Part shown: in pieces, positions 15,548 through 32,635 of the stretch
How positions within the stretch are numbered: position 1 is the first letter of the stretch
Layout: each line of letters opens with the position of its first letter
NCBI GenBank assembly: GCA_029933125.1
Contig: JAOZOU010000012.1
Coordinates: forward strand, 1-35,425
Source: a bacterium
GTDB taxonomy: Bacteria > Arandabacterota > Arandabacteria > Arandabacterales > Arandabacteraceae
Direction: 5' to 3'
Length of the DNA: 35,425 nt
Notes under the pieces: model-generated
What the model was told of the DNA's origin: nothing
The model's input: only the letters and a program-made list of their open reading frames with translations
Databases searched by the model: none
Translations under genes and position numbers: made by a program

Positions 15548-16846
15548 ATGTTGTGGAATGCATCATATTTCCTTGCTGGACTTCTAATCACCCTTAGCAT
15601 TCTCATCTTTGTTCATGAGTTAGGTCACTTCGTAGCCGCCAAGCGCTCTGGGGTCAGGGTTGAACGCTTCTCAATAGGTTTTGGACCCAAAATCGTGGGT
15701 TTCGAGCGTGGTGGTACTGAGTATGTCATAAGTGCGATACCTTTCGGTGGTTATGTGAGGATGGCAGGGGAAGATCCCAGTGGGCCAACAACAGGTGCCA
15801 AATGGGAGTTCATGTCCAAGGACAAGAAGACACGCGCTCTGATAGTGGCTGCCGGTCCGCTCATGAATTTTGCTCTATCAATTGTAATTCTTACAATGCT
15901 TGCTGGGCTTGTGGGTGTGGAGAAGATATCGACCCGTGTAATCGGAAAGGTTGCACCTGACTCGCCTGCTGCAAGAGCGGGGCTTAGGATGGGAGATGTC
16001 ATTGAGGCTGTTGGTGCTGAGAAGGTCACCGATTGGGATGGGGTTATGAGGGGTTTTGAGAAAAATCTCGGTCAAAAGGTTGAGATCGTTTTTCAGCGTG
16101 AGGCAAAGCCTGAGACAACTAGCATCGACCTTCGCAATCTGGATTCATTTGCAGACATAGGCATAGAGGTTCTCCGCGAGCCAATTGTTGGGGACGTTGC
16201 CTGGCAGGGACCAGCCTATGGCGCCGGTATTCGATCCGGGGATAGAATAGTTGAAGTTGATGGAAAGCCTATTGCTACCTGGGATGATCTCAGAGAAGCA
16301 ATTCTTCCATATCCAGGTGATACACTTGAGATCGTCTGGCAAAGAGGTGAGGAGATTCACACTTCAAGGATAGTTCCCAAAGATGCAAATGGCTTTGGCC
16401 TTATTGAGATAACACCGATGATCGAACGTCACAGAGCTAATCCCATTGAGGCCCTGAAGTTGGGAATCAACATGTCGCTTTGGGCAGCCAAGCAAATTCG
16501 TCATGTGACAAAATTCTTTGCTGCCCTGTTTGGCCACAAAGGTTCTGCCGATGCTGTTGGTGGACCCATCCGCATAGGAGAAGTGGCAGGCGATGCCTTA
16601 AGGTGGGGGATCTCGAACTTCCTGTGGTTCATTGCGCTCATAAGTGCCCAGCTAAGTGTTGTCAATCTCATACCTATACCTGTTCTTGATGGTGGCCACA
16701 TCCTCCTTCTGGGAATCGAATCCATCACAAGGCGTCCTGTCACAGCTCGCCAGCGAATAATTGCTCATCAGATTGGCTTTGCCTTCCTGGTTGCTTTCAT
16801 GCTTCTCGTTACACTTCATGATATTCTTAGGGTTGCTGGCAGGTAG
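15548..16846 (+). CDS. rseP: RIP zinc metalloprotease RseP/RasP
   Basis: A 432-residue inner-membrane site-2 protease. Zinc motif HELGH is at H23-H27, inside the first membrane segment. Two PDZ domains follow (about 115-190, APDSPAARAGLRMGDVI, and 205-285, GPAYGAGIRSGDRIVEVDG). The third zinc ligand lies in NLIPIPVLDGGHILLLGIE, then a last membrane segment. It cleaves membrane-bound anti-sigma factors and remnant signal peptides. Its last 20 bases overlap the convergent lipoprotein gene. Confidence 0.96.
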   Translation: MLWNASYFLAGLLITLSILIFVHELGHFVAAKRSGVRVERFSIGFGPKIVGFERGGTEYVISAIPFGGYVRMAGEDPSGPTTGAKWEFMSKDKKTRALIVAAGPLMNFALSIVILTMLAGLVGVEKISTRVIGKVAPDSPAARAGLRMGDVIEAVGAEKVTDWDGVMRGFEKNLGQKVEIVFQREAKPETTSIDLRNLDSFADIGIEVLREPIVGDVAWQGPAYGAGIRSGDRIVEVDGKPIATWDDLREAILPYPGDTLEIVWQRGEEIHTSRIVPKDANGFGLIEITPMIERHRANPIEALKLGINMSLWAAKQIRHVTKFFAALFGHKGSADAVGGPIRIGEVAGDALRWGISNFLWFIALISAQLSVVNLIPIPVLDGGHILLLGIESITRRPVTARQRIIAHQIGFAFLVAFMLLVTLHDILRVAGR

Positions 16847-17141
16847 GTGTGGTGTGGCTCTTCTCGAGGATGTCCTCATAGATCTCGTACCACAGATCAG
16901 GATCGCTTCCATATCTTATGAGCAGTGAGTCTGCAAGGGCTTTGATATCTTCGGGCCAGGGAGTAGCCTTAAGTTCGCTTGAGAAAACCTCAGGGTTGTG
17001 GCCGTAGGCTTTCTCAAGGTAGATGCTCGTTGAAAGAACATCTATGAAGCGCTCGATATCAGGCTCATCGCGCTGTTCTACGGCTTTACAACACCCAAGT
17101 AACGGCAATATCATGAGGAGCAAAAAGCTGCGAATTTTCAT
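16827..17141 (-). CDS. Small predicted lipoprotein, unknown function
   Basis: A 104-residue product. The N-terminus MKIRSFLLLMILPLLGC is a lipoprotein signal with lipobox LLGC (Cys17). The mature part is hydrophilic and helical, with DIERFIDVLSTSIYLEKAYG and ADSLLIRYGSDPDLWYEIYEDILEKS. This helical, Tyr/Trp-rich pattern faintly recalls DUF4296-type small lipoproteins of Bacteroidetes, but the resemblance is only by eye. The start is ATG 17141. No ribosome-binding site is visible upstream, and a TATAAT box lies nine bases before the start, so the mRNA is probably leaderless. The gene overlaps the 3' end of rseP tail-to-tail and is divergent from tamA. Confidence 0.75.
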   Translation of the reverse strand: MKIRSFLLLMILPLLGCCKAVEQRDEPDIERFIDVLSTSIYLEKAYGHNPEVFSSELKATPWPEDIKALADSLLIRYGSDPDLWYEIYEDILEKSHTTPTCQQP

Positions 17142-17150
17142 TACAAATTG

Positions 17151-17156
17151 ATTATA
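17151..17156 (-). promoter_or_regulatory. -10 box of the lipoprotein gene
   Basis: Read on the minus strand, this is a perfect TATAAT ending nine bases before ATG 17141. The transcript would begin about two or three bases before the start codon. The -35 at the usual distance (about 17174-17180) is poor. The box is part of the symmetric ATTATAAT (17151-17158). Confidence 0.5.
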
Positions 17157-17158
17157 AT

Positions 17159-17177
17159 CCATTGGAACACCCAATGG
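17159..17177. repeat. Perfect inverted repeat, candidate operator
   Basis: CCATTGG (17159-17165), AACAC, CCAATGG (17171-17177). It lies between the two divergent promoters, directly behind the lipoprotein -10 box and about 20 bases before the tamA -35 box. Position and symmetry fit a dimeric regulator that could control both genes; as RNA it would form a 7-bp hairpin. Confidence 0.5.
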
Positions 17178-17197
17178 ACACCTATATTTTCGTTGTG

Positions 17198-17227
17198 TTG
17201 ACATGGGAAATAGGCCTCTGCTAATAT
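17198..17227 (+). promoter_or_regulatory. tamA promoter, leaderless type
   Basis: A perfect -35 TTGACA (17198-17203), 18-base spacer, and -10 TAATAT (17222-17227). The tamA ATG at 17240 is only 12 bases after the -10 box, so the leader would be about five bases and there is no room for a ribosome-binding site. Confidence 0.7.
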
Positions 17228-17239
17228 GCGCACAGAAAA

Positions 17240-19132
17240 ATGAAGAAATTCATAATCTTACTTATTGCAATCCTCATTCTAACTGCCTTTCCCATAGGGT
17301 CTGAGGCAGCGAGAAAGCGCTTGCCTGGCGGTCCTGCTGTAAGGAAGATCCATATCGTTGATCTCCAAAGGTATAGCGAGAAAAAGATAAAGTCGCTCAT
17401 GCGAACCAAGGAAAGTCGTTTTCTCAGGACCAAGCATTACAGGGAAAGCACACTTGAGTCTGATCTTGTCTCAATTGTTGCCTTCTACCGGAACAATGGT
17501 TTTCTCAAAGCTCAGGCAGTAGTTGATACGATTGTTTTCGATGATAACCATGAAAATGTCTGGATAACAATCAGGGTAAACGAGGGCGAACAGACAATCG
17601 TTGGCAAGATTGAATTTGTGGGCAATCTTGCCCTTTCTGATGCTGATCTGCGTCACCTGATTGCGCTTAAGGCCGGAGAACCCCTGGACGAGCGCAAGAT
17701 AGCTGCTGACAAATATGCTATCTATGCGAAGTATGCAGATATAGGATACGTTTACGCAACGATAAGCCATAAGATATCAGGTTCGAACGGAGCTGCCACC
17801 GTAAGATACGTTATCAATGAGGGTGAGCCTGCGCTGGTGGGTTCGCTTGCTGTGAGAGGGAATAACCACACATCATCCAAACTCATAGAACGTGAGATTG
17901 AGCTTAAGCCAGGGCAACTGTTCTCCCGGGAGAAAATCATTGATAGTCAGCAGAATCTCTACAATACAGGTCTCTTTAAGGATGTGGATATTGAACCAGT
18001 CGCTGCTAGTAGTGACTCAGATAAGGTTGATCTCCTGATAAGAGTTAAGGAACGCAAGATGAGGGAAATCTCCCTGGCAGTTGGCTATGGAACAAGGGAT
18101 GAAGCAAGGATGACTCTTGGCTGGCTTCACCGTAATCTTTGGAACACAGGTAGAGAGCTTCAGCTTCGAGGTATAGTTGCCTCAAAGGATTTTGACAAGG
18201 GCCTGACACGCAAACGTGGAGAGGCAGCCATAACCGACAGGTGGCTTTTCGGTAGACGAATCGTTGGGGCCATCGCCATGTTTGGTCAGGAAACTATCGA
18301 GGATTATCAGCAAGTCCCGGGAGGCGAATATACACTGGTAAGGATTGGTGGTGACTTTAGCATCAAGAAGGAATTCTCTCGCAATACACGACTTACGCTG
18401 ACATATACCCATGAAATTGTGGATGTAAGAGAGCCTAGCTGGACTGTTGAGAATCCTGAGGAGCTTCGCCTCACGCTTGGTCAGGAAATCAATCGATCAG
18501 CCACATTGTTTATGGAAAGGGATACGAGGCTACCCTTCTTCGATCCTCACGAAGGATCCCTGCTTCGTCTCGTTATCAAAAGAGCTGGTGGTATCTTTAA
18601 GGGTGACAACGACTATAGCAAAATGACTCTGAGCTGGTCTTCATACCATCGGTTTTACGCAAATGCGGTTCTTGCCATAGGCCTGCGCTTAGGTTTCGCC
18701 GAGGCTTTCGGAGTATCACGAGACAAAGGTGTCCCGGAATATGAAAGATTCACGGCTGGCGGCTCGAGCACTATCAGAGGCTATGATGAACGCGAGTTTG
18801 GTCCCGGGGATTTCCTTGCGGTTGGAAATCTGGAGATCCGCTATCAGCTCTTCTGGAGACTTGTTGGTGTGATGTTTCTTGACATGGGTAATGCCTGGCC
18901 AAGCATAAGGGATGTCAGCATATCTGACTTTGACATCTCCGTTCCGGCAAGTGAATATTCTGCGAGGAGAACGGATGACGTGAAGTATAGCTTGGGTTTG
19001 GGCTTGGGAATCCAGACACCCGTTGGTCCCGCAAGGCTAGACTATGGATTTAGATTGAAGCGCGCTTTCCTGGAATCAGGCAGGAAGGAAGCTTCAGGTA
19101 TGCTACACATCACAATAGGACATACATTCTGA
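17240..19132 (+). CDS. tamA: Omp85-family outer-membrane assembly protein, TamA-like
   Basis: A 630-residue product with a signal peptide (MKKFIILLIAILILTAFPIGSEA). About three POTRA domains cover residues 34-275, with VNEGEQTIVGKIEFVGN and INEGEPALVGSLAVRGN as typical POTRA turns. A 16-strand-size barrel region covers about 275-630. The Omp85 signature STIRGYDEREFGPGD (the RGY lid motif) and GLGLGIQTPVGPARLDYGF are present, and the protein ends in Phe. BamA usually has five POTRAs, so the short periplasmic arm and the tamB gene immediately downstream (stop and start overlap) support TamA. The pair inserts outer-membrane proteins or moves lipids. Ribosome-binding signals are absent, consistent with leaderless translation. 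Confidence 0.87.
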   Translation: MKKFIILLIAILILTAFPIGSEAARKRLPGGPAVRKIHIVDLQRYSEKKIKSLMRTKESRFLRTKHYRESTLESDLVSIVAFYRNNGFLKAQAVVDTIVFDDNHENVWITIRVNEGEQTIVGKIEFVGNLALSDADLRHLIALKAGEPLDERKIAADKYAIYAKYADIGYVYATISHKISGSNGAATVRYVINEGEPALVGSLAVRGNNHTSSKLIEREIELKPGQLFSREKIIDSQQNLYNTGLFKDVDIEPVAASSDSDKVDLLIRVKERKMREISLAVGYGTRDEARMTLGWLHRNLWNTGRELQLRGIVASKDFDKGLTRKRGEAAITDRWLFGRRIVGAIAMFGQETIEDYQQVPGGEYTLVRIGGDFSIKKEFSRNTRLTLTYTHEIVDVREPSWTVENPEELRLTLGQEINRSATLFMERDTRLPFFDPHEGSLLRLVIKRAGGIFKGDNDYSKMTLSWSSYHRFYANAVLAIGLRLGFAEAFGVSRDKGVPEYERFTAGGSSTIRGYDEREFGPGDFLAVGNLEIRYQLFWRLVGVMFLDMGNAWPSIRDVSISDFDISVPASEYSARRTDDVKYSLGLGLGIQTPVGPARLDYGFRLKRAFLESGRKEASGMLHITIGHTF

Positions 19133-22100
19133 TGAAAAGGGCAACAAAAGGGACTCTCTATTTTATCATAGTCGTCACGATAGTTATACTTGGGACAGTA
19201 GCTGTTCTGCGTTTTCAGAGTGAGCGCGTAGCCATCCGCCTAGGTGATTATGTCACTGCCAAAATAGGTTCTGATCGCAATCTCGTGGTTGAGATTGGAG
19301 ATATCGGTGGAAGCTTTCTCAGAGACATTAGACTCAAGGATGTTTGCCTTAGCTACGTTGGTGGGGAAGTACCCAGAGTCTTACTTTCAGCTCCAGAGGT
19401 CTATTTAAAGTTCAATCTCTTCACACTCTTGAGAAAGCAAGTTGAGATTGACTCTATCCACATTACATCACCCCATCTTGTTATCCCTCTCGCTGCTGAT
19501 GGTTCGCGCATCTACCCTACGGGCGATAAGGCTAGGAGCAAAGGTAAGCCATCACCACTTAGGATAAGGCACATGACGATAGAGAATGCCTCGGTCATCT
19601 GGCAAGACCATACCCCGAGGGTCATAAGTGATATCAACTTGACTGCTAGTTTGGCCAAGCAAGAAAACGTAACGAGGTTGAGTGTGGAAAGGTGCAATTT
19701 CAAGTATCAGGATCATATGGTGATCCGAAGCCTGGCAGGCATCCTCGAGATACTTCCCGATAGGCTCGTCCTGGGCAAGACAGCCCTCGAGACCCCTTCT
19801 AGCAAGTTGACAGTTGAGGGCTTCTTTGGCATATCAGACAATGACTCCCTCAGGGTGAGTCTCTTTGCTGACAGCCTCGATGTCGGGGAACTTGCTACTG
19901 CTCTCAAGGGCTCGCCTCAGCCTGAAGGTAGAATCTCAGGCAAGGTAATTGCATCTGGAACCAGGAAAAATCTTAAGTTCTCGCTTGGGATCGCCGGCAA
20001 CATTGATGATTGGTACTTTGATGATCTTAAAGGCAAGGCATCCTATGGGAGAAAAACCTTAAGGATAGCCTCACTCAGAGGAGTTCTAAACGGTGCTCCG
20101 ATTAGGTTGTCTGGTAGATACATCTTGAGCGATCCACCTCGCTATGCCGGCATAGTTGGCTTCTCGGGGCTTGACCTCTCCCAATTCATCGCAAGTACAA
20201 GTGGCAGATATGCTTCGGACCTTGCTGGATCGATACGCTTTGAAGGCGAAGCTTTCGATAGGAGACGCTTCCGCCTAGCCATATTTCCTAGGCTTACACG
20301 TGGTAGATATGAGAGTTGGAAATTTGATGGGCTAGCCGGTAAAGCCACGTTTGATGCTTCATCAGTTCGCCTTGATAGCGTTACTGCCTGGGTGGAGAGT
20401 ACGAAGGTTACAACAACGGGGACAATAGAATTCGATGGAGATACATGGCTTGACTTCGCTTTTGACAGTGATAACCTAGCTGACCTTGAGCGTTACTATG
20501 GCGTCAAGGGCTTGAGGGGTAAGACGCACGGACATGGCCATTTCACCTATCAATATGGAACATCGCTTGTTGAAGTCTCATCTGTGGGAAGAGCAATTGA
20601 GTACGGAGGCTCGAGACTTGATAGTGTGGACTTGTCTCTCAAGCTCGTACATGAGGCTGAGGAGCTTAAAGGTGAGGCTTCAATCTTTGGAAGGAAGGTC
20701 ACCATCAAGGAGCTTAGGGGAAAGGAACTCCTTGCAGATCTTGAGATAGATGGAAAGCGAATAGCAATAAAAAGACTTGTTCTAACTCGGCCCTCGGATG
20801 AACACATTGGTGCCATAGGCAGCATTGCTCTTAAGCCCAAGGGCTTTGACATTTCCATAGATCACCTTCTTTTTGAAACAGGCTCATATGTATGGGAAAC
20901 ACCTCAGGCCTTTAATGTCTCCTATCGGCAGGATTCAGTCTCAATAGATGATTTCGATCTCGTTTCATCCATAGGTCGCCTCAAGTTTAGCAACGCTTCC
21001 TATGTAGGGGGGATCTATCACCTGGCCCTCGGGATCGAGGAGCTCAACCTCGGTTCCTTGAAGCAAGTTTTCACGGCAGGTATTCCTACGGGACTTCTCG
21101 ACTTAACTCTTGAGATTGCAGGCTCATATGAGAGCTTGACCTTCGCTTCAGGTTTTGAAATAGCCAATGGAGAAATAATGGGTGTGAGATATGATAGGTT
21201 AAGTGGTAAGCTCAACTACGACGGCAAGATGCTGAGGGTTGATCGCCTCAATCTCAGCCAGAATGGCGGTAAGGTTGATCTTTCCGGCTTCATGCCTATT
21301 GATCTATCGCCTGCAGCAATCTCAAGTCACTCAAAACATGGAAATCTACAGGCTCTTATACAGGATCTTGGTGAGTTTGAGATTGCCACAGCCAGCATGG
21401 ACATATCAATCTTGAGACCCCTTTTGCCGCCACTTCGCAAGTTAAGTGGTTACGCTGATCTCAAGATGACTGTAAGCGGGAGCAAGACAACGCCGAGGAT
21501 TGTCACTGAAGGAGAGCTCAGGCAAGCCCAATACGGTAATGTAGGTCTTGGTGAGATAAAATGGAGCGTCATCTATGAGGATTCGCTTCTTAGGATTGCT
21601 CATCTTAACTTCGGTAGGAAGGACCAGAGAGGCGAGATAGCGGGAGTTTTTCCTATAGCGATATCAATTCTTCCCTTCGAGAGTGAAGTGCTTGAGTCAC
21701 CTATGAATATTTCAATAAAGGCTCAAAACGGTGACCTTGGTCTATTGTGTGAGGTGATTCCCAAGCTCAAGGTGTGTAGAGGATCCTATTTCTCAGACCT
21801 GCGCATCGCTGGTACGATCAAGGATCCTGAATTCTATGGTTCAGTAAAGCTCTCAAATGCACGTCTTCGAATCGAAGGTGTTGCTCAAGATCTTCGCAGC
21901 ATTTTCTTGGATGCCGAGGCTGACGGGAAGCGGTTTATTATTCACAACCTTAAAGCTGAGGATGGAGCCCTGGCTGGCTCTGGATTCATTGAGATGCAAC
22001 AACTCGCTATAACGAATTGGCATGTTGCTCTCAAATTTGATGACTATCGGCTAACAGAATTTGAGGATCTCTATGCCAGGCTCTATGGTGGGATTGAGAT

Positions 22101-23007
22101 TGACGCTGAACGCCTCGAAAATGGAAGGGTGGTTCCGCTCATAACAGGCAAAGTCAAGATTCGGGAAGGAGAGTATTTCTACGCGTTGGGGGGTGAGGGG
22201 GGAGAGTTCATGGGACCCACAACGAATCCCTCATGGCTATTGAATGTTGAGATTGAGATTCCCAATGCCTTTTGGATAAGAGGCAATGATATAGAGGCCG
22301 AGCTTCAGGGAGACTTGAGCGTTAAGCGAACTGGTCAGGGCCTGGTCGTCCTGGGGACTTTAAGAACCCTGAGAGGAAAATTCTATGTTTATCATAACTC
22401 CTTCAGGATAACCAGCGGTGAATTCAGATTTGCAGATGTCACCAGTCTTAAAAAAGCTTATATTGATGTTGAGGCTGAAGCTACCGTGCTTGATGAGAGG
22501 ATAAAGATAAAAGCGAGCGGATATGCGGATAATCTTGACATAACTGCAACCTCTGAAAGTGGCTGGACTGAAACTCAAATCTTTGAGGCGTTGACCTTGA
22601 GGCGTAAGGCAAGTGAAGAAGGTGGAGGTGGGGTTTTGTCCTCGGCATTCTTGCGATCATGGGCGCTTGCACTTGCAAATCATCTTGGAAATGATGTGGC
22701 TCGAGAACTAAACCTCGACCAGTTTGGTATCGAAATTGAGGATACAGGGGAGGGTAGTGCTCTTGCTGCCACAAGAGTGACCATAGGTAAGTATCTCATG
22801 CCGAATATCTACCTCCAATTTAGTCAATCGCTTGGAAGTCTTTATGGTGATCGAACCCGGTTCACTCAGAGAGGCCTCTCATATCCTGAAAGGCAGTTCT
22901 CAGTTGAGTACCGCCTGAGTGACCGCTTCTCCATTGAAGGCCAGACCGGCACTGTCGGTGGTCTGGGCTATTTCGATGTTGACCTTAAGATGAAGTTTGG
23001 ATACTGA
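19132..23007 (+). CDS. tamB: Translocation and assembly module protein TamB (AsmA-like/DUF490)
   Basis: A 1291-residue product. A single N-terminal membrane anchor (residues about 8-27, LYFIIVVTIVILGTVAVL) is followed by a very long repetitive beta region typical of the bridge-like hydrophobic groove of AsmA-like proteins. The C-terminal DUF490 part has GLVVLGTLRTLRGKFYVYHNSFRITSGEFRF, a predicted TSESGWTETQIFEALTL segment, GKYLMPNIYLQFSQSL and a final VEYRLSDRFSIEGQTG..DLKMKFGY. It is thought to span the periplasm and carry phospholipid, or help barrel insertion, with TamA. It overlaps tamA by one base (TGATG). Confidence 0.92.
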   Translation: MKRATKGTLYFIIVVTIVILGTVAVLRFQSERVAIRLGDYVTAKIGSDRNLVVEIGDIGGSFLRDIRLKDVCLSYVGGEVPRVLLSAPEVYLKFNLFTLLRKQVEIDSIHITSPHLVIPLAADGSRIYPTGDKARSKGKPSPLRIRHMTIENASVIWQDHTPRVISDINLTASLAKQENVTRLSVERCNFKYQDHMVIRSLAGILEILPDRLVLGKTALETPSSKLTVEGFFGISDNDSLRVSLFADSLDVGELATALKGSPQPEGRISGKVIASGTRKNLKFSLGIAGNIDDWYFDDLKGKASYGRKTLRIASLRGVLNGAPIRLSGRYILSDPPRYAGIVGFSGLDLSQFIASTSGRYASDLAGSIRFEGEAFDRRRFRLAIFPRLTRGRYESWKFDGLAGKATFDASSVRLDSVTAWVESTKVTTTGTIEFDGDTWLDFAFDSDNLADLERYYGVKGLRGKTHGHGHFTYQYGTSLVEVSSVGRAIEYGGSRLDSVDLSLKLVHEAEELKGEASIFGRKVTIKELRGKELLADLEIDGKRIAIKRLVLTRPSDEHIGAIGSIALKPKGFDISIDHLLFETGSYVWETPQAFNVSYRQDSVSIDDFDLVSSIGRLKFSNASYVGGIYHLALGIEELNLGSLKQVFTAGIPTGLLDLTLEIAGSYESLTFASGFEIANGEIMGVRYDRLSGKLNYDGKMLRVDRLNLSQNGGKVDLSGFMPIDLSPAAISSHSKHGNLQALIQDLGEFEIATASMDISILRPLLPPLRKLSGYADLKMTVSGSKTTPRIVTEGELRQAQYGNVGLGEIKWSVIYEDSLLRIAHLNFGRKDQRGEIAGVFPIAISILPFESEVLESPMNISIKAQNGDLGLLCEVIPKLKVCRGSYFSDLRIAGTIKDPEFYGSVKLSNARLRIEGVAQDLRSIFLDAEADGKRFIIHNLKAEDGALAGSGFIEMQQLAITNWHVALKFDDYRLTEFEDLYARLYGGIEIDAERLENGRVVPLITGKVKIREGEYFYALGGEGGEFMGPTTNPSWLLNVEIEIPNAFWIRGNDIEAELQGDLSVKRTGQGLVVLGTLRTLRGKFYVYHNSFRITSGEFRFADVTSLKKAYIDVEAEATVLDERIKIKASGYADNLDITATSESGWTETQIFEALTLRRKASEEGGGGVLSSAFLRSWALALANHLGNDVARELNLDQFGIEIEDTGEGSALAATRVTIGKYLMPNIYLQFSQSLGSLYGDRTRFTQRGLSYPERQFSVEYRLSDRFSIEGQTGTVGGLGYFDVDLKMKFGY

Positions 23008-23017
23008 GGTATCTAAG

Positions 23018-25960
23018 ATGAAAAGGATTGCATTTATCCTGATCGGCTTTTCACTCTTACCATCGCTTGCCTTTGGCTTTGGTAAGAACAAGATACAGTA
23101 CAGAGGTTTTGAGTGGCTCATCCTGAAGTCAAAGCACTTTGATATCTATTACTATGATAATCAGCGCTTCCTTGCTGACCGGGTTGCTCTTCTGGCTGAT
23201 GCCTCCTATGATTCCCTGAGCCATTATTTCAATCATGAGCTTTCGACACGAATTCCAATGCTTGTTTATAAGTCGAGTAATGAATTCCGGGAAACCAATG
23301 TTACCCTCGAACTTATCGGTGAAGGTGTTGGGGGATTCACCGAGATGTTTAAGAACCGAGTTGTCATTCCATTCTCGGGCTCTTATGAGGAGCTCCGACA
23401 TGTTATCATGCACGAGCTCACTCATGTTTTCAGCTTCGATATGCTCTATGGTGGTCTGCTTGAATCGATATTCACACGGCAGTATCTCTTTGCGTTACCG
23501 CTCTGGTTCCTTGAGGGGCTTGCGGAATATGGATCGGAATACTGGGACAGCGAAGCAGAGATGGTTATGAGGGATGCAACCATAAATGAATATTATTTTG
23601 CTCTATATGAGGATGTGCGGGGCTATCTGGCTTATAAAGAAGGTCAGTCGGTCATCAAGTATATAGCAGATAAATACGGAAGACAGAAGCTCACAGATAT
23701 TATCCAAAATATCAGTACAACCCGCAGCCTTGAGAAAGCCCTGCTCAATAGCATTGGAGTGGATAGCAAGGGACTTACGGAAGCCTGGGTGAAGCATATA
23801 AAGAAGCGATACTGGCCGGAGGTTGCAGTTCGAGAGGATCCTGAGGACATTGGCTCAAAGCTTACCGATCATACTACTGATGGCTCATTCATGAATATCA
23901 TGCCTGCCATATCACCGGATGGACAGAAGCTTGCTTTTGTTTCAGATAAGAGTGGTTACAGAGACATATATCTCATGTCAGCCATAGATGGGAGAATAAT
24001 AAGGCGCTTGGTGAAGGGGCAGAGAAGCAAGGATTTTGAATCTTTTCATGAGCTCCGTTCAACTATATCATGGTCTCCCGATGGTAACTACATTGCTTTC
24101 GTGAGCAAGCGTAAGGATAAAGATGACATCTACATAGTGGATTCGGAGAGGGGGAAGGTCAGGAGGCGGATAGAGCTCGACTTTGATGCCATCTACAGAC
24201 CCAATTTCTCACCCGATGGCGGTAAGCTTGGCTTCATTGGCATTGAAGACGGAAGGCCCGGCATTTACACCTATGACCTTGAAACTGGAGAAGTTGAAGC
24301 CCTTCATACAGGAGCCCTTGAGTACCTTGCTTTTTCATGGTCTCCCGATGGCACCAAAGTTGCTTTCTCTGCTATCTTGCCGGGTTATGTGGATTCGCTC
24401 GATATCTTTGGGAAGGTTGATCCCAAGAGGAGACCTGACAGAAACATCTACCTTCTCAGTGTCGACGATGGCAAGGTCGAGCAGCTCACATTTTGTCGAA
24501 GCGAAGATGTTTCGCCTGTTTGGTCGCCGGATGGCGAGAAATTACTCTTCGTATCAGACCGTGAGCGAGCCTATGACCTCTACATATATGACGTCGCAGA
24601 CTCAACAACTGCTCAGCTTACCAATGTGCTTGGTGGCATCTTCAGCCCAAGCTGGTCAAAAGAGGGTGACCGCTTGGTATTTTCGGTTTTCTCCAACGGG
24701 GGCTGGGATATCTATCAGGTGAAGGATCCGCTTGGTGAGCTCAAGCCAATAAAGAAATTTCGGGAGAGCCAATGGCAACCTGATATACCCTGGATTGAAG
24801 AGTGCAACGCCCTTGCATCGCAGGGTGGCTCGGCGCCGGGCCTAAGTGTGCCGGATACCCTTGACTATGAGGTGACCAAGTATAAGGTGAAGTTCACACC
24901 CGATTGGCTTGCTGGTTCATTCCAGTATAGTTCAGCATTCGGGCTTGGAGGATTGACTCGCCTTTCCGTAAGCGACATACTTGGCAACCATAGAATCTAT
25001 ATTGCCTCTGATTTCTTCTCTTCGTTTTCTGAGACGGATTTCCTTGCTATCTACTATTATCTTGCTCGCAGGACTGATTATGGCTTCGGGCTTTTCCACT
25101 TCAAGAACTATTACTATTCGGATCGCACGACCCTTGGAGCCCCAATTGGGGAGGGGAATGAAGAGAAGCTCTTCTCTGAAAGAAACTATGGTGCTGTCTT
25201 TGCAATGTCATTTCCTCTGGACACCTACCGCAGGTTTGACTTTGACTTTACAGCAATGCGCATAGATCGAGAGGTTTACAAGGACGAATTCGACTATGTT
25301 GATTTGGAGTTGCCCATCGAATACCGTGAAACTGAGGATCTCTTCATTCCTAGACTATCCTATGTTAAGGATACAACCATCTGGGGACCCACTGGTCCAG
25401 CAGGCGGAACACGCTACATGCTGAGTGTTGAGAGATCGATAGTGGATGTCCTTGGAAGTGATCGCTCCTTCACAAATGGAGTCATCGACTATAGGAAATA
25501 TCTGCGCTTCTCACGGCGTACCCAGTTTGCAACACGTCTCTTCGTGGCAACGAGCCAGGGTGCACAGCCTTTGACTTTCTATGTTGGTGGAGGTAACAGC
25601 CTGCGGGGCTACGAGGATTTTGAGTTCGAAGGGAACAATGTCTTGCTTGGCAACTTTGAGCTTCGTTTTCCTTTTATCGAGCGCCTTGTGACTCGTGGGC
25701 CAATTCCTCTTTCGCTTGGCGGTGTGCGCGGTGTCTTGTTCTTCGACATTGGGGGGGCTTGGAGAGGAGATTTCGAAGATCTAAGGGTTGCCCGTGTTGT
25801 CGATGGTCAGGAAGAGCTTAAGGATCTCAATGCTAGCTATGGTTTTGGTATGAGGCTCTGGTTGGGTTACTTTCTAGCAAAGATCGACTTCGCCTGGGCA
25901 ACTCGCTTCAATGGCACACTTGGCAGAAGGGTTCACTTCACGCTTGGGGGAGAGTTCTAA
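23018..25960 (+). CDS. Metallopeptidase - TolB-type propeller - Omp85-like barrel fusion
   Basis: A 980-residue product starting at ATG 23018, with GAGGT upstream and a signal peptide ending near LAFG. Residues about 25-265 look like a gluzincin metallopeptidase (peptidase-MA-like): HELTH (132-136) and a Glu 30 residues later in EGLAEYGSE (E166), all three zinc ligands intact. Residues about 285-580 hold five or six TolB/PD40 repeats, each with a motif like SPDGQKLAFVSD or SWSPDGNYIAFVS. From about 615 to the end is an outer-membrane barrel with an Omp85-type NSLRGYEDFEFEGNNVLLGNFELRFPF, VLFFDIGGAWRG and a final Phe. No POTRA is seen. The gene follows tamB after 10 bases and probably shares its transcript. 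A role in cell-surface or periplasmic protein turnover or export is inference. Confidence 0.82.
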   Translation: MKRIAFILIGFSLLPSLAFGFGKNKIQYRGFEWLILKSKHFDIYYYDNQRFLADRVALLADASYDSLSHYFNHELSTRIPMLVYKSSNEFRETNVTLELIGEGVGGFTEMFKNRVVIPFSGSYEELRHVIMHELTHVFSFDMLYGGLLESIFTRQYLFALPLWFLEGLAEYGSEYWDSEAEMVMRDATINEYYFALYEDVRGYLAYKEGQSVIKYIADKYGRQKLTDIIQNISTTRSLEKALLNSIGVDSKGLTEAWVKHIKKRYWPEVAVREDPEDIGSKLTDHTTDGSFMNIMPAISPDGQKLAFVSDKSGYRDIYLMSAIDGRIIRRLVKGQRSKDFESFHELRSTISWSPDGNYIAFVSKRKDKDDIYIVDSERGKVRRRIELDFDAIYRPNFSPDGGKLGFIGIEDGRPGIYTYDLETGEVEALHTGALEYLAFSWSPDGTKVAFSAILPGYVDSLDIFGKVDPKRRPDRNIYLLSVDDGKVEQLTFCRSEDVSPVWSPDGEKLLFVSDRERAYDLYIYDVADSTTAQLTNVLGGIFSPSWSKEGDRLVFSVFSNGGWDIYQVKDPLGELKPIKKFRESQWQPDIPWIEECNALASQGGSAPGLSVPDTLDYEVTKYKVKFTPDWLAGSFQYSSAFGLGGLTRLSVSDILGNHRIYIASDFFSSFSETDFLAIYYYLARRTDYGFGLFHFKNYYYSDRTTLGAPIGEGNEEKLFSERNYGAVFAMSFPLDTYRRFDFDFTAMRIDREVYKDEFDYVDLELPIEYRETEDLFIPRLSYVKDTTIWGPTGPAGGTRYMLSVERSIVDVLGSDRSFTNGVIDYRKYLRFSRRTQFATRLFVATSQGAQPLTFYVGGGNSLRGYEDFEFEGNNVLLGNFELRFPFIERLVTRGPIPLSLGGVRGVLFFDIGGAWRGDFEDLRVARVVDGQEELKDLNASYGFGMRLWLGYFLAKIDFAWATRFNGTLGRRVHFTLGGEF

Positions 25961-28114
25961 TTGGACCTCTTCCGCGATCTCAATCCTTCACAACGTGAGG
26001 CTGTTACTTACTTGGGTGGTCCCCTGCTTGTGCTTGCAGGTGCAGGTAGTGGGAAGACACGGGTATTGGCTCACCGCATAGCATTTCTAGTAGCAGGCGC
26101 ATCTGTTGCACCTTATGAGATCCTTGCTGTCACTTTCACTAATAAGGCGGCAGGTGAAATGGCCGATCGTGTTCGGGGACTTGTTGGTGATGTGGCATCT
26201 GGAATCTGGATGGGTACCTTTCACTCCATCTGCGCAAGAATACTGAGGATCGAAGCGAAGAAATACGGTCTTATGCCCAACTTCACTATCTATGATGAGC
26301 ACGACCAGCACCTCCTTATGAAACAGGTTCTCAAGGATCTTGGGATCTCAGATGGTTGTATCACTCCAGCAAGTGCGCTTTCGCGAATAAGCGGTCTTAA
26401 GTCAAATCTTGTCACACCGGATGAGCTTGAGGAGTATGCATCGAGCCCTTATGACCTGAGGTTTGTTGAGATCTATCGAGCATATGAGAAAGCCTTGCAT
26501 AACAACAATGCACTGGATTTTGATGATCTCATAGTTATTCCTGTTAGGTTGATGAAGCGGCTTCCTGAAGTGCTTCAAAGATATGCAACAAGGTTCAAGC
26601 AAATCCTCATCGATGAGTACCAGGACACCAACAAAGCCCAGTATGAGCTGGTGAGGTTACTCTCCGGTTACCATCGTAATGTTTGTGCGGTAGGTGATGA
26701 TGATCAATCCATCTACAGGTGGCGGGGGGCTGATATCACTAACATACTCAACTTTGAGAATGACTTTCCGGATGCTAAGGTTATCCGACTTGAGAGATCC
26801 TACAGATCGACCAAGACAATTCTGGCTGCCTCGCAGGCTGTCATCAAAAACAATCGCAAACGCAAGCCCAAAGAGCTCTGGACTGAGAATGAAGTCGGAA
26901 ACAAGCTCCTTGTAGCTATGGTTGGAGATGAACAAGCTGAAGGTATTTTCATCAGTGATAAGATAGAAGAGCTGAGAGAATCCCAGGGACATGCATATGC
27001 TGACTTTGTAGTACTCTATCGCACAAATGCTCAGTCACGCTCTATTGAGGATTCTCTTAGGAGGCGAGCCATCCCCTATGTTATCGTGGGTGGGGTAAAA
27101 TTCTATGAGCGTAAGGAGATAAAGGATATAATCGCCTATCTCAAGGTCATCGCAAACCCCAGGGACTCAGTGAGCCTTCTCAGAATAATCAATGTTCCCA
27201 ATCGCGGAATTGGCGATGTAACCATTCGCCGTATCAAGGAATTTGCTTCTTCAAGAGGTCTCTCCATAAGTGATGTCCTCAATAGCCTCACCGATATTGA
27301 AACACTAACAACTGGCCAGAGGCAGAGCCTGATGAAGTTTGCTGACATGCTTGCTGAGCTCAGGCAAAAGGCTAAGGCAAGTTCTGTTCCTGAGCTTATT
27401 GCCTTTGTTGCTGAACGCTCGGGCTATCTTGCTCATCTTAAGAAGCAAGGTACGGTTGAAGCTATCTCAAGATTGGAGAATATCGAGGAGCTTGTTGCTG
27501 GTGCCTATGAATTCGAGGAGAGATCACAAGAGCCAAGCCTGGCGAAGTTTCTTGAGGAAGTATCCCTGATTATGGACATCGATCTCTGGGATGACAGGCG
27601 AGATGCAGTTAGCCTGATGACGCTGCACAATGCAAAGGGGCTTGAATTCCCGATAGTTTTCATAGCTGGAGCGGAGGAAGGCTTGCTGCCCCACCATACC
27701 TCGCTCGAGGACGAAGATGAGTTAGAGGAGGAGCGACGTCTCTTCTATGTCGGATTGACTCGTGCTAAGAAAATGGTCTTCATTACAATGGCGGTTGGAA
27801 GACGAACTTTCCAAGGATGGATGCCCCAGACAGGCTCGAGATTTGTTGCTGAGATTCCAGTTGAATTTATTGAGTTTGAGGATTTGACTCAGCCTGCAGG
27901 TGGGATGTCAGACGATACATGGGGAAGTGATATGGTTATTACAAAGGGAGCCAGGGTGAAACATCCCGACTGGGGAGTTGGCAGAGTCATTGCATGTGAT
28001 GGTTATGGAAAGCACCTGAGATTGCTTGTGAGGTTTGAGGGTGGTATAACCAAGCGTCTGCTTGCACACTATGCCAATCTCGAGATTCTTGATGACGCAG
28101 ATGGTTTTTACTGA
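25961..28114 (+). CDS. pcrA: ATP-dependent DNA helicase PcrA/UvrD
   Basis: A 717-residue superfamily 1A helicase with the motifs in order: Walker A LAGAGSGKTRV, Ia TFTNKAAGEM, II DEYQDTNKAQYEL, III GDDDQSIYRWRGAD, IV LERSYRST, V MTLHNAKGLEFP and VI RRLFYVGLTRAKK. The C-terminal GARVKHPDWGVGRVIACDG..LLVRFEGG is the Tudor-like, RNA-polymerase-binding domain of PcrA/UvrD. It acts in repair, replication restart and transcription-conflict resolution. It starts at TTG 25961 immediately after the preceding stop, behind GGGGGAG. Confidence 0.95.
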   Translation: MDLFRDLNPSQREAVTYLGGPLLVLAGAGSGKTRVLAHRIAFLVAGASVAPYEILAVTFTNKAAGEMADRVRGLVGDVASGIWMGTFHSICARILRIEAKKYGLMPNFTIYDEHDQHLLMKQVLKDLGISDGCITPASALSRISGLKSNLVTPDELEEYASSPYDLRFVEIYRAYEKALHNNNALDFDDLIVIPVRLMKRLPEVLQRYATRFKQILIDEYQDTNKAQYELVRLLSGYHRNVCAVGDDDQSIYRWRGADITNILNFENDFPDAKVIRLERSYRSTKTILAASQAVIKNNRKRKPKELWTENEVGNKLLVAMVGDEQAEGIFISDKIEELRESQGHAYADFVVLYRTNAQSRSIEDSLRRRAIPYVIVGGVKFYERKEIKDIIAYLKVIANPRDSVSLLRIINVPNRGIGDVTIRRIKEFASSRGLSISDVLNSLTDIETLTTGQRQSLMKFADMLAELRQKAKASSVPELIAFVAERSGYLAHLKKQGTVEAISRLENIEELVAGAYEFEERSQEPSLAKFLEEVSLIMDIDLWDDRRDAVSLMTLHNAKGLEFPIVFIAGAEEGLLPHHTSLEDEDELEEERRLFYVGLTRAKKMVFITMAVGRRTFQGWMPQTGSRFVAEIPVEFIEFEDLTQPAGGMSDDTWGSDMVITKGARVKHPDWGVGRVIACDGYGKHLRLLVRFEGGITKRLLAHYANLEILDDADGFY

Positions 28115-28123
28115 AACCTATCT
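28099..28123. terminator. Hairpin shared by two convergent stop codons
   Basis: AGATGGTTT (28099-28107) pairs with AAACC-T-AUCU (28114-28123), one bulged base, around loop TTACTG. The pcrA stop (28112-28114) and the convergent gene's stop (28118-28120) both lie in it, and only three bases separate the two genes. Neither side has a long T-run, so a bidirectional terminator role is only a suggestion. Confidence 0.4.
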
Positions 28124-31100
28124 GAGCAGAATAACCTTACGTGTGAGTCTCTGGTTCCCGTTTTGAATTGAAACAAAGTAAGTGCCACTGGCCGTTGGAT
28201 TCCCATCATTATCAAGGCCATCCCAGATCACAAGATCTGCGTTGCCAGCAGGCGAAAGTATTGTTCTAACGAGTCTTCCCCTTATATCAAAGATGTCAAT
28301 ACGAATGGGGTATCTCATCGAGCCAGAGGTGAGAATATTGAGCCTTTCCTTGAAAGGAACAGGATACAGCGCCCTGAGCAAAGCTTGGTGAGTTTCATTG
28401 GCAATACCCGCCGGTGAGGTATCCAGCCAGTCAGAATAGTCAACATCACCATAGAACATTGAAGGATCTGGATCAGATGAGCCCCACCAATTGGCCTGAG
28501 CCTTTATCTCATTGGATGTTGTGTTGTAGATGGCATACTGAGCATTCAGACGTATATCGTTGAGCCCACCGAGACCTGAAGATTCATCACCCAGTATGGG
28601 ATTGCTGTAAACATATATTCCAACACCAATTGCATTTGAGACTATTGAGGTTTTTGAAACAACAGGGCTTGAATAGTATGCCGCCTTTATGCCGCAATCA
28701 CCATTGTAACCAATCCAGCAAGAATCTATCTGCGGGGAGCTATTGCTTAGATAGATTCCGCAAAGTGAATTGTGCTCAAATCTGTTTCCTGGGAGGATAG
28801 AGGGTGTTGAAGAATAACATGCCAATCCATGGCCTTCAACTGTTGAGTAAAAACGATTATCCTCAAGGATTGCAGTTGAACCGCCCGAAACAACCAAGCC
28901 ATCGTATTTGTTTGAGGTGAGCATGTTTCCAACAATAATTGGCGCACCTCCATTGACGTTTATGCCATAATCACAGTTGGAGATGGTATTGTGATCAAGA
29001 TAAGGTGAGAGGTCATTTGTCTTTATACCAACGACGCACTCTGACATTCTGCACTCGCTCACTACTACATCATCTGTCTCACACTCAACTCCTGTGATGG
29101 CTCCGTGTATGAATATGCGTGAGAGCCCAGCATGGCCAGTGTCTTTGATAAGTACACCACTCCATGTATCCCTGGCATATGGTTTGGCAGCGGGCTCGAG
29201 AACCACAGGACTTGCAGTGGACCCAGATGCATAAAGATTTCCTTCAACAATTATTTCGCAACGATCTTCGGAGATTCCAGCCGGGTAAACCGAATCATGC
29301 ACAAGTCTGATAAGGCTGGATCTATCAAAGGTAAGGGTTGCTCCCTCACCCACAACCACATCACCAACCACGTCAATCCTGCCACCTATTCTGAGAGAGC
29401 CAGTAATCTCACCATAAAGGGGCTGGGCATAGGTGCCACTTCTGGTTGGGCTAGATCTCGTGGTTGGCCATTCGACTCTACCACCCTGGCTCCCCAAGTC
29501 GAGAACAAAGAGAAGTGAATCACTTGATCCCGCAAAAATTTCGATATTAGAGTCAGCATCGATATCCCAGGCTGTCACATCTGCGGCGCACAGGGCCTTC
29601 ATGGGTACAGGCGAGATAAGGTAGCCAAGAGATGGATTAAGAAGATGGATTCTTCCATCCTTTGTGGCAACCATTATTTCGGCTTGGCCATCTTCATCAA
29701 CATCCGCAATGGCGCATCCTCCCTGAATCGAAGAGCCAAGATCAGCGCTATAAGCAATGACTCCATCATCGATTTCATAAAGTTGGCCAGATCCACTGAG
29801 GCAGACCAACTCAAGATCCAGGTCCCCATCAAGATCACCAAGAGATAAGCTGGCTGGTGCTTGAGGGCAAATAACACTGCTTGTGCGGTGGCCGTCATCT
29901 GCATCAAAGATAGCAACGGTATCATCTATCGCAGCAACAATCTTAAGTATCCCATCACGCTCAAGATCGCCTGCAACGGCACACGATATATTCCCCACAA
30001 GCTTTTTCTCCCACTGCAATGTGGGAGGTTCTTCTGAACAAGTTAGACAGGCTAAGGTGCCTGATGTGGTTGCGAAGACAATCTCCTTAAAGCCATCAAG
30101 ATCAGTGTCGCAGACAACGATTGAGGAAAGCTTGTTACCGTAGCCCGGGACATCATATGTCCATCTCCATGATCCAGAGGCATCAAAAGCGGCCAGTTGA
30201 GAATAGGACGAGTAGGTTCCGAGAAGGATTTCATAAGAACCGTCACCATCGAGATCGCTTACAACTGGTGAAAGGACAGGATAATCGGTGTACCGCCTCC
30301 ATATGGTGGAACCATTCGCCCCTTCCAGCACAAGCAGTGAGGATCTTGTTGTGAGTATAGCTTCCGTTAGACCGTCACCATTGAGATCGAAGGCCGTTGG
30401 CTCGATTCCCTTATAATGATGTGGCATTCCCAGATCGTCTCTCGACCAAAGCGCATGTCCATCAAGTGCAATTGCTTGGGCACAGGAACCATCGGAGGCA
30501 ACTAGAATTTCAGATGTCCCATCGTTGTTGAGATCAGCAACGACTTCCCCAGCTGGATCATCTCCAAGCTTTACAGGGAAACCGTCCTGACAGGGGTAGA
30601 CATAGACCATCTCCTGTAGGGAATTGTTAGTCTCATCAAGTTCCTGGATACTATCCCCAGGGTCAGCAACCAGGTAGAGGTCAACATCACCAGCAGCCAG
30701 AGGGCCGACTGTGAAATCCACCTTTCGCTTTTCCCACCCCCAGAAGTCTGTCAAAACCTCCGACCCTACTTGCACACCTCCGCTATCTGGATTTCCAGCA
30801 TAAATGTCTACTCTGAACTGCCCAACGTTCGCACCGCCCGCATTCCAGACCTCAGCTTCAAGATGGATGTTATCGTCAGGTGTTGGGAACTTAGGATCGA
30901 CTTTTACAGAGTAAGGGCGAATGGTAATATCAGGTGCAGCAGCAGGGTAATCATGCAAAACGAAATTCAAACATGGGTCACCAAAAAGGTTGAATTGCCT
31001 CACATATTCTACATTTCCCAATGCAAGGAGATGGCGAGTCTTGGCTTCGAAGATAAGCTCACCAAGAAAAGTACACCCGTTGACAAAGAGCGCTTTGATT

Positions 31101-32509
31101 ATCTCTGGAGCAAAAACTGTTGTAGCTCCGCCACCAGCCTCGCGGGAGGAAGCCAAGCAAGCGATTGCACCATCGTCGGGTTCAACTACCAATCTCTCTG
31201 CAAGGCAATCGTAGCCCCCGTCGCTATATGCTACCGCCGTGTTGTCGAACCAGCCACTGCTACAGGATATCGAAAGCACGATTGCGAGCCTATCGGAATT
31301 CTCAAGGTCCTCTATGCGTGCGCTCCTAAAGACTCGCTCATGGCGGGCACCCCAGTCAAACTTGTCGCCATCTCCACTATAGAGGACGAATAGCCTGCCC
31401 GCATTGACGGAATCGATAAAAGCTTGAGTTGCCTGGGCATCACCCTGGTCGGTGAGGGGAAAGTCATATCTGTAGAAGCGTGAGATCTCATATTCCTCGG
31501 GAACATATGCCTCGAGACTGTCAAACAATACAACATAATCTTCATTCTCTGCGAAGTAGCATCCTGCCACAAAAAGCAAAGAAGTTGTCCATGCATCAAA
31601 AGGAAGGGGAGAGTAAGCTCGTAGCTTCCGGTAGTAGTTTATCAGCTCTTGCTCGTTACCAACGGGTATGCGGCCGATCATTATGTCTTCAAAGTCATCT
31701 TCTCCAACAAGACAGGCGTAGAAATGATCGGATGCTTCCATGTTAAGACCATAGCCATCGTATTCTGGAACCATCTTGGTTACATTATCATCTTCATAGG
31801 CATCTCCCAGGAGTACAACGAAACCGAGGTGACCATCTCCGTGATGTTCAGCACTTGCGGAGGAGTAAAGCCTCTTGATGAAATCCTTTATCGCAACAGC
31901 GCTATAGGCTGAGATATTGATGACATCGATGATGGCAACATTGAGTCCCATGTGCTCAGCCCAGAGCATTGCGAGCGAATCAACATAGGAGCTCGTATAG
32001 ATACAGTGCCCAACAATGAGCAGAATGTCAGCCTTGGCATCGCGACATTGTGCAAGATTCACACACCGGGTGACACAACCACCATCTGTGCTGGCAAGCT
32101 CAGATATGCCTTGAGGATCATAACCCACAACGAGTCTTCTCAAAGCGCCTGCTAGTGGACCAGTGTCGACTGATATTGGGGTCAAGGGGTCTTCATATGT
32201 AAGGGATAGTTCTAACCGAGTATGAGGCTCAATTTGATCGTCTATACGAAAGATGCCTATTCGCTGATCACGGATGTAGGCGGTTTCAACAAGGTGTGAT
32301 CTGAGCAATCTTTGCTGAGTCCTTATCTCGACCCTGAATGCTTGGCACTCAGGCAAGGGCAGACAAATGGTCTGGCTCGTATGATCAATCTCGTCACTTG
32401 AGAATGCCAGTGTCTTCGAGATTGCCTGAGCTCCGAAAACATCAGGGGGACCGATAGCCAGAAGCGCTACAATCCCCCCGAGAAGGACCCCGCTAAACCT
32501 TATTTTCAT
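28118..32509 (-). CDS. Giant secreted gingipain-family (C25) protein with propeller, beta-helix and sorting domain
   Basis: A 1463-residue product from ATG 32509, behind GGGGGAAG. It has a signal peptide (about 1-27) and a prodomain-like start. Residues about 155-515 are C25 peptidase-like: VVLLGDAYED, SDHFYACLVGEDDFEDIMIGRIPV, and candidate nucleophile C416 in SISCSSGWFDN. At the usual catalytic His the protein has D380 (YSGDGD instead of YSGHGD), so proteolysis is doubtful. A CARDB-like domain (about 525-640) has DPGDSIQELDETNNS. About eight FG-GAP/VCBS repeats (about 640-1005) have DLNNDGTSE- or DLDGDGSYE-like loops. A right-handed beta-helix (about 1035-1350) follows, and the end (about 1380-1463) is a FlgD-Ig/type-IX-like sorting domain: YPVPF, IRGRLVRTI, WDGLDNDGNPTASGTYFVS. 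Cell-surface display or release is inferred. Confidence 0.85.
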   Translation of the reverse strand: MKIRFSGVLLGGIVALLAIGPPDVFGAQAISKTLAFSSDEIDHTSQTICLPLPECQAFRVEIRTQQRLLRSHLVETAYIRDQRIGIFRIDDQIEPHTRLELSLTYEDPLTPISVDTGPLAGALRRLVVGYDPQGISELASTDGGCVTRCVNLAQCRDAKADILLIVGHCIYTSSYVDSLAMLWAEHMGLNVAIIDVINISAYSAVAIKDFIKRLYSSASAEHHGDGHLGFVVLLGDAYEDDNVTKMVPEYDGYGLNMEASDHFYACLVGEDDFEDIMIGRIPVGNEQELINYYRKLRAYSPLPFDAWTTSLLFVAGCYFAENEDYVVLFDSLEAYVPEEYEISRFYRYDFPLTDQGDAQATQAFIDSVNAGRLFVLYSGDGDKFDWGARHERVFRSARIEDLENSDRLAIVLSISCSSGWFDNTAVAYSDGGYDCLAERLVVEPDDGAIACLASSREAGGGATTVFAPEIIKALFVNGCTFLGELIFEAKTRHLLALGNVEYVRQFNLFGDPCLNFVLHDYPAAAPDITIRPYSVKVDPKFPTPDDNIHLEAEVWNAGGANVGQFRVDIYAGNPDSGGVQVGSEVLTDFWGWEKRKVDFTVGPLAAGDVDLYLVADPGDSIQELDETNNSLQEMVYVYPCQDGFPVKLGDDPAGEVVADLNNDGTSEILVASDGSCAQAIALDGHALWSRDDLGMPHHYKGIEPTAFDLNGDGLTEAILTTRSSLLVLEGANGSTIWRRYTDYPVLSPVVSDLDGDGSYEILLGTYSSYSQLAAFDASGSWRWTYDVPGYGNKLSSIVVCDTDLDGFKEIVFATTSGTLACLTCSEEPPTLQWEKKLVGNISCAVAGDLERDGILKIVAAIDDTVAIFDADDGHRTSSVICPQAPASLSLGDLDGDLDLELVCLSGSGQLYEIDDGVIAYSADLGSSIQGGCAIADVDEDGQAEIMVATKDGRIHLLNPSLGYLISPVPMKALCAADVTAWDIDADSNIEIFAGSSDSLLFVLDLGSQGGRVEWPTTRSSPTRSGTYAQPLYGEITGSLRIGGRIDVVGDVVVGEGATLTFDRSSLIRLVHDSVYPAGISEDRCEIIVEGNLYASGSTASPVVLEPAAKPYARDTWSGVLIKDTGHAGLSRIFIHGAITGVECETDDVVVSECRMSECVVGIKTNDLSPYLDHNTISNCDYGINVNGGAPIIVGNMLTSNKYDGLVVSGGSTAILEDNRFYSTVEGHGLACYSSTPSILPGNRFEHNSLCGIYLSNSSPQIDSCWIGYNGDCGIKAAYYSSPVVSKTSIVSNAIGVGIYVYSNPILGDESSGLGGLNDIRLNAQYAIYNTTSNEIKAQANWWGSSDPDPSMFYGDVDYSDWLDTSPAGIANETHQALLRALYPVPFKERLNILTSGSMRYPIRIDIFDIRGRLVRTILSPAGNADLVIWDGLDNDGNPTASGTYFVSIQNGNQRLTRKVILLR

Positions 32510-32635
32510 ATCCGCACTTCCCCCCGGTAGCCTCACGCCAGGCAAGACTACCCTCTCACTTCCTTATGTTGTTGAGTGCGGTGCTCTCTAGAGCTTCTTG
32601 TCTCCTCCCTTTGTGACGGTAGAGCAAGGTAGTTC
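32510..32635 (-). other. Gap between two minus-strand secreted-protein genes
   Basis: A 126-base gap. On the minus strand it holds a 5-bp hairpin GCTCT-AG-AGAGC and, at the end, the purine-rich ribosome-binding region of the 1463-residue protein. I see no good -35/-10 pair and no T-rich terminator, so transcription probably reads through from the upstream gene. Confidence 0.4.

Follow-up and report, generated by a model that had tools for sequence, protein, structure and literature searches.

The window, i.e., the whole stretch of DNA analyzed, comprises 35,425 nucleotides of contig JAOZOU010000012.1 (GenBank assembly GCA_029933125.1). It harbors on its plus strand an intact open reading frame (23018-25960) which starts with an ATG at 23018, ends with a stop codon at 25960 and encodes a protein of 980 amino acids. 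A signal peptide, a gluzincin peptidase of the Peptidase_MA_2 family, a TolB-like propeller and an Omp85 barrel follow each other in this single chain. The signal peptide MKRIAFILIGFSLLPSLAFG (amino acids 1-20; 23018-23077, plus strand like all features of the gene) is devoid of a lipobox cysteine; residues 1-19 were poorly conserved in an alignment of 44 sequences and were modeled with a pLDDT <50. The peptidase domain (amino acids 21-288; 23078-23881) was delimited by a Pfam match to Peptidase_MA_2 (PF13485) at residues 78-262, which scored 45.7 bits against a cut-off of 32.4, and by the modeled domain and its conservation. It contains the zinc-site motif HELTH (amino acids 132-136; 23411-23425) and E166 within EGLAEY (EGLAEYGSE; 23513-23515), the presumed third zinc ligand. 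A profile match above cut-off combined with HExxH and a downstream glutamate assigns this domain to the gluzincins of PF13485, and zinc-dependent proteolysis is predicted. The TolB/PD40-type β-propeller (amino acids 289-590; 23882-24787) matched PD40 with 127.7 bits (cut-off 20.9), and the barrel (amino acids 626-980; 24893-25957) matched Omp85 PF01103 at residues 686-980 with 67.9 bits (cut-off 24). The barrel carries an RGY motif of the VRGF/L6 type (amino acids 863-865; 25604-25612) and an FxDxG motif (amino acids 908-912; 25739-25753), in which D910 and G912 were each present in 43 of 44 sequences.

A structure model was built with AlphaFold from the alignment of 44 natural sequences and reached a mean pLDDT of 84.9 and a pTM of 0.85; it replaced a model from the single sequence (pLDDT 36), which was discarded. 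The model comprises the peptidase (about 21-288) and the propeller (about 289-590), followed by a linker of poor prediction quality and, between residues 626 and 976, by the 16 strands of the barrel. Long and short loops alternate in the second half of the barrel; the longest (847-874) connects strands 11 and 12 and holds the RGY motif, and FxDxG lies on strand 13. Omp85 barrels have their N-terminal side in the periplasm, and the position of RGY in the longest loop corresponds to the L6 arrangement of Omp85 proteins; in the model, the N-terminal domains would therefore lie on the periplasmic side, opposite the long loops. The best neighbors in a Foldseek comparison with the PDB were TolB (E 5e-12), which headed the lists for the propeller, and BamA, represented by barrel-only entries with a target TM of about 0.57-0.61. 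A sequence search of the PDB with the peptidase profile returned weak matches only (collagenase, 0.016; glutamyl aminopeptidase, 0.1), as might be expected of a gluzincin with no close solved relative; the assignment of the peptidase fold is based on the Pfam match and the conserved residues. POTRA domains were absent from the 980 amino acids in the Pfam scan, and in the model the propeller runs into the barrel. Hence, the protein has the 16-strand C-terminal barrel and the L6 and FxDxG motifs of the Omp85 superfamily, but not its POTRA domain.

Ten residues (H132, E133, H136, E166, Y206, D824, R826, R863, E881, and R883) were identical in all 44 aligned sequences; G864 was kept in 41 of them and the final phenylalanine was nearly invariant. 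The peptidase was the best conserved domain with a mean pairwise identity of 41%, as compared to 30% for the propeller and 33% for the barrel. In view of these invariant residues, a chance open reading frame was dropped as an explanation. A previous sequence-only reading of this DNA had described a chain of three parts whose gluzincin site is intact and whose Omp85 barrel lacks POTRA, and Pfam, the invariant residues and the 16-strand model bear this out. The signal peptide, HELTH at 132-136, E166 in EGLAEYGSE, the RGY motif and a gap of 10 bases after tamB were all found in the sequence as claimed. Of the C-terminal barrel and the peptidase fold on which that reading depended, the model shows a 16-strand Omp85-type barrel with matches to BamA and a peptidase domain.

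The gene upstream, tamB (19132-23007, plus strand; 1291 amino acids; PF04357, 117 bits), ends 10 bases before the fusion gene. Lipid transport or assistance in protein assembly across the periplasm is the presumed function of TamB-type bridges. tamB is preceded by a gene for a TamA/BamA-like Omp85 protein of 630 amino acids with three POTRA stretches (17240-19132, plus strand; PF07244 and PF01103), whose best NCBIfam match is BamA, just below cut-off. The Omp85 gene of the TamA/TamB system also adjoins tamB, but TamA has POTRA domains and the fusion protein has none. A TamA orthologue was ruled out on this ground; a separate tamA-like gene with POTRA domains is located in the same operon. A TolB orthologue was also ruled out: TolB shares the propeller alone, by sequence and by fold, and scored 168.5 bits against an equivalog cut-off of 343; all TolB and BamA-type NCBIfam matches of the fusion protein remained under their equivalog cut-offs. 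Immediately downstream, a uvrD/pcrA helicase gene identified by Pfam and NCBIfam (25961-28114, plus strand) abuts the fusion gene and is probably a housekeeping neighbor. The order tamB, fusion gene, uvrD was kept within the window's class wherever contigs permit, with tamA upstream where visible, and uvrD adjoins the fusion gene in this class only.

Several further genes of this region were observed. The three-POTRA Omp85 gene at 17240-19132 follows rseP, a position in which bamA is often found; a second Omp85 protein of 807 amino acids, probably BamA, is encoded on contig C141. Between rseP and tamA lies a small gene for a probable lipoprotein (16827-17204, minus strand), which has a relative at the same place in locus L020. 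Convergent with uvrD, a gene on the minus strand (28118-32545) encodes a protein of 1475 amino acids, whose C25 (gingipain/PorU-like) peptidase domain is accompanied by FG-GAP and β-helix repeats and by a sorting tail for type IX secretion. The gene stays beside the operon across the class (L015, L017, L018, L020, and L059), and the features of its product point to a substrate of type IX secretion outside Bacteroidota.

Scanning of public genomes yielded 49 loci of the fusion gene, and the same single-chain fusion was found in at least ten bacterial groups. Groups with loci were Eisenbacteria, Zixibacteria, Calditrichota, WOR-3, Marinimicrobia, Ignavibacteria, Balneolaceae, Mcinerneyibacteriota, Aminicenantes, Acidobacteria, and Elusimicrobia. 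All eight genomes examined from the window's phylum possess the gene, as do 125 of 198 sampled genomes of the phylum comprising Melioribacteraceae and Balneolaceae; among the matches listed from these 198 genomes, single open frames span nearly the whole profile. Several genomes contain two or three copies. In 99 Acidobacteriota genomes, peptidase-profile matches with E <1e-49 were located in frames of 927-1272 amino acids with three exceptions. Split genes were considered for these three short matches and rejected: two were cut off at a contig end, and the third is a full-length gene interrupted by a run of N. Weaker peptidase-profile matches in Acidobacteriota represent other peptidases in frames of many lengths. 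A barrel-less relative of 633 amino acids, consisting of peptidase and propeller, is encoded on plasmid pSR116 of Salinibacter ruber (L103:5944-7845); it is annotated as "basic secretory protein-like protein", and its gene lies upstream of a serine carboxypeptidase S10 gene. Relatives are thus nearly always fused, and the barrel was lost at least once; among the relatives found, this barrel-less copy is the one exception to the fusion on which the sequence-only reading had relied.

Linkage of the fusion gene to tamB recurred beyond the window's class. In Balneolota, the order is aroB, a TamB-family gene, rnr and the fusion gene; in Ignavibacteria and others, tamB, rnr and the fusion gene follow each other, tightly packed in most examples read. 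In one genome (G147), tamB is a divergent near-neighbor of the fusion gene. A Pfam-confirmed tamB was located within ≤10 kb of the fusion gene in seven of 38 other genomes, as compared to 0.46 expected by random placement (Poisson 6e-7), a figure which overstates independence and serves as a guide only since some of the tamB-linked genomes are closely related. In L081, the label TamB derives from a weak single-sequence match. The Balneola gene of 1559 amino acids beside rnr has no Pfam match and weak TamB similarity, and its orthologue at the same place in L080 matches PF04357; it was labeled TamB-family in the trees and left out of the chance estimate. The recurrence of tamAB adjacency, which the sequence-only reading had made a test of its proposal, thus held in several phyla for tamB more than for tamA: no tamA was found beside the fusion gene at the Balneolota and Ignavibacteria loci. 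In two Balneolota genomes (G087 and G213), one tamB adjoins a different Omp85 gene (654-677 amino acids) and a second TamB-family gene is part of the order tamB, rnr, fusion gene; there may be two TamB-Omp85 pairs in these genomes.

The family was further resolved by a tree of 63 rows with SH-aLRT support and by a second tree. The window's branch comprises 35 rows (support 97), of which 23 are linked to tamB and 12 have no tamB in reach. In its paralogous sister clade (clade B; support 100), the fusion gene is followed in 18 of 18 rows by a gene which Pfam identified as a PQQ propeller. A third set of rows has no shared neighbor. The deep branching order is weakly supported and differs in the second tree. 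In clades A to C, the catalytic residues are conserved without exception. The second copy, which belongs to clade B, is regularly followed by the PQQ-propeller gene and a protein of about 240 amino acids belonging to no Pfam family (L046:12793-14651 and equivalents), a pair seen in Calditrichota, Marinimicrobia, and Ignavibacteria; the PQQ protein of L046 starts with a lipobox-like stretch, as read by eye.

Nine relatives from Bacteroidota-type genomes form one CATALYTICALLY dead clade with a support of 100 in the second tree. They match the whole-length profile and retain (L/M)RG(F/Y), and Pfam barely detects them. HExxH was found nowhere in these nine proteins; the equivalent of EGLAEY was readable in eight of them, e.g., as PDWFVTGASAY, and contains no glutamate. 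No tamB match was present in the regions examined around these genes. In the vicinity of three of them (L117, L118, and L120), a confirmed PorU gene (type IX secretion system) is located, followed by PorV in L117 and L118; the relative in L121 is possibly near porU as well, and a gene for an MBL-fold hydrolase-like protein is a common neighbor. The architecture is kept here without the active site; a role shared by the family would therefore require no proteolysis, at least in this branch.

Part of this architecture has been named before. Heinz and Lithgow described in 2014 a WD40-Omp85 group with a TolB-like propeller directly N-terminal to the Omp85 barrel and without POTRA, and likened it to a fusion of BamA and BamB (PMC4104836). 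The sequence-only reading had been unable to name the fusion; its propeller and barrel half already had this name. The window's protein fits the main-text description, which mentions the propeller alone and to which it adds an N-terminal gluzincin, and its family is likely the published WD40-Omp85 group. The "Metallo" Omp85 group of the same authors is separate and defined by PF00149, a domain different from the gluzincin. At least one POTRA is found in BamA, TamA, and PlpD and none in the WD40 and noNterm Omp85 subfamilies. Literature searches for Peptidase MA/PD40/Omp85 and for PF13485, together with the main text on WD40-Omp85, returned no published description of a peptidase on a propeller-Omp85 fusion. 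Features which appear to be new are the N-terminal gluzincin with its invariant residues, the recurrent linkage to tamB (and rnr), the sister clade with its PQQ-propeller gene and the branch of dead enzymes. Other Peptidase_MA_2 or BSP-type gluzincins share HExxH and the downstream glutamate, but in the window's protein this domain is fused to propeller and barrel.

Two known systems are relevant for the function. PlpD, the patatin-Omp85 protein of P. aeruginosa and the one enzyme-Omp85 fusion that has been studied, likewise combines an N-terminal enzyme and an Omp85 barrel in a single chain, but its parts are a patatin lipase and a POTRA domain instead of a gluzincin peptidase and a propeller. 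Its enzyme domain was shown to be periplasmic, passage of a folded domain through a barrel of this type was judged unfavorable, and loss of plpD raises phospholipid levels (PMC11116518). BepA (YfgC) is a zinc peptidase promoting or degrading LptD on the BAM complex (PMC8423444). As a zinc peptidase at the outer-membrane assembly machinery it is a functional analogue for quality control; however, it belongs to family M48 and is not fused to a barrel.

The best explanation for the whole of these data, which we put forward with somewhat less than even confidence, is a periplasm-facing Omp85 protein in which a propeller takes the place of POTRA domains and a protease serves in processing or quality control at the TamB bridge. 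Such a protein would contribute to the biogenesis of the outer membrane, at the end of the bridge that reaches this membrane. The TolB-like propeller would stand in for the POTRA domains, bear the N-terminal gluzincin and dock partners or clients, both domains facing the periplasm; the barrel would lie in the membrane and offer a surface for assembly or insertion, and clients stalled at the bridge would be trimmed or destroyed by the peptidase, in the manner of BepA on BAM. We prefer the periplasm for two reasons, the orientation of Omp85 barrels, whose N-terminal side is periplasmic, and the precedent of PlpD, which keeps its enzyme there. A periplasmic peptidase is indeed quite probable, and proteolytic activity of the window's member is equally so; a physical or pathway link to TamB is slightly favored, and a role in processing or quality control, drawn by analogy, is conceivable but rather doubtful. 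The 12 of 35 rows without tamB count against this explanation, as does the clade keeping the architecture without an active site, so that the shared role would not depend on proteolysis. The barrel-less copy beside the S10 carboxypeptidase gene also counts against it, since it fits a degradative role without assembly function.

The same observations bear differently on the alternatives. A type Vd-like autotransporter, whose barrel sends the peptidase (and the propeller) to the surface to degrade external protein, would have the order of enzyme, linker domain, and Omp85 barrel known from the first PlpD model; surface delivery is among the options that Heinz and Lithgow raised for enzyme-Omp85 fusions (PMC4104836), and the Salinibacter copy beside a carboxypeptidase gene fits a feeding protease. 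We consider it improbable, however, because PlpD, the type Vd prototype, has a periplasmic enzyme and passage of a folded domain was judged unfavorable (PMC11116518), the folded peptidase and propeller that would need to pass amount to about 590 residues, and tamB linkage and a catalytically dead clade ill suit a feeding enzyme. This linkage also renders it improbable that the neighborhood is uninformative and the protein a periplasm-facing general or nutrient protease with the barrel as mere anchor. Apart from the tamB and PQQ clades, the neighbors are highly variable, and rnr, uvrD, murA-like and PGI neighbors are housekeeping genes, so that tamB might reflect clustering of envelope genes; yet tamB linkage recurs in two gene orders, in separate phyla and above chance, and the retained Omp85 L6 and FxDxG motifs exceed the needs of an anchor.

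It seems less unlikely, though still unlikely, that barrel and propeller form the outer-membrane partner of a TamB-type bridge (in Balneolota of the second TamB) in phospholipid delivery, with the peptidase fold mainly as scaffold or regulator. G087 and G213, with one tamB beside another Omp85 gene and a second TamB-family gene beside rnr and the fusion gene, would agree with this, as would the barrel motif retained in the dead-enzyme clade, the rise of phospholipid upon loss of plpD, and TamB/AsmA being predicted lipid-transfer proteins with N-termini related to VPS13 (PMC6791001). On the other hand, tamA is present in the window's own operon, strictly kept catalytic residues in clades A to C argue for catalysis, and the dead-enzyme clade has no tamB neighbor in the regions examined. 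As to the explanation favored here, the sequence-only reading had offered a surface or periplasmic protease, perhaps clearing or exporting clients of TamAB, as an inference. Its observation was confirmed and its interpretation is partly supported: the periplasm agrees with our topology, the surface is the weaker choice given the periplasmic enzyme of PlpD, and proteolysis is not universal since one clade has no active site.

Conserved in several phyla beside tamB and equipped with its own peptidase, this Omp85 protein is an immediate candidate for the outer-membrane partner of TamB outside Proteobacteria. It also adds a further type of enzyme-Omp85 fusion to the one represented by PlpD. Since catalytic, PQQ-linked, tamB-linked, and catalytically dead branches exist, the purpose of the peptidase can be approached by comparing them. 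At its widest, and with little confidence, the family might represent a protease-armed, POTRA-less Omp85 machine that partners TamB-type bridges across many phyla, with a peptidase acting on bridge clients and a pseudoenzyme scaffold in one clade.
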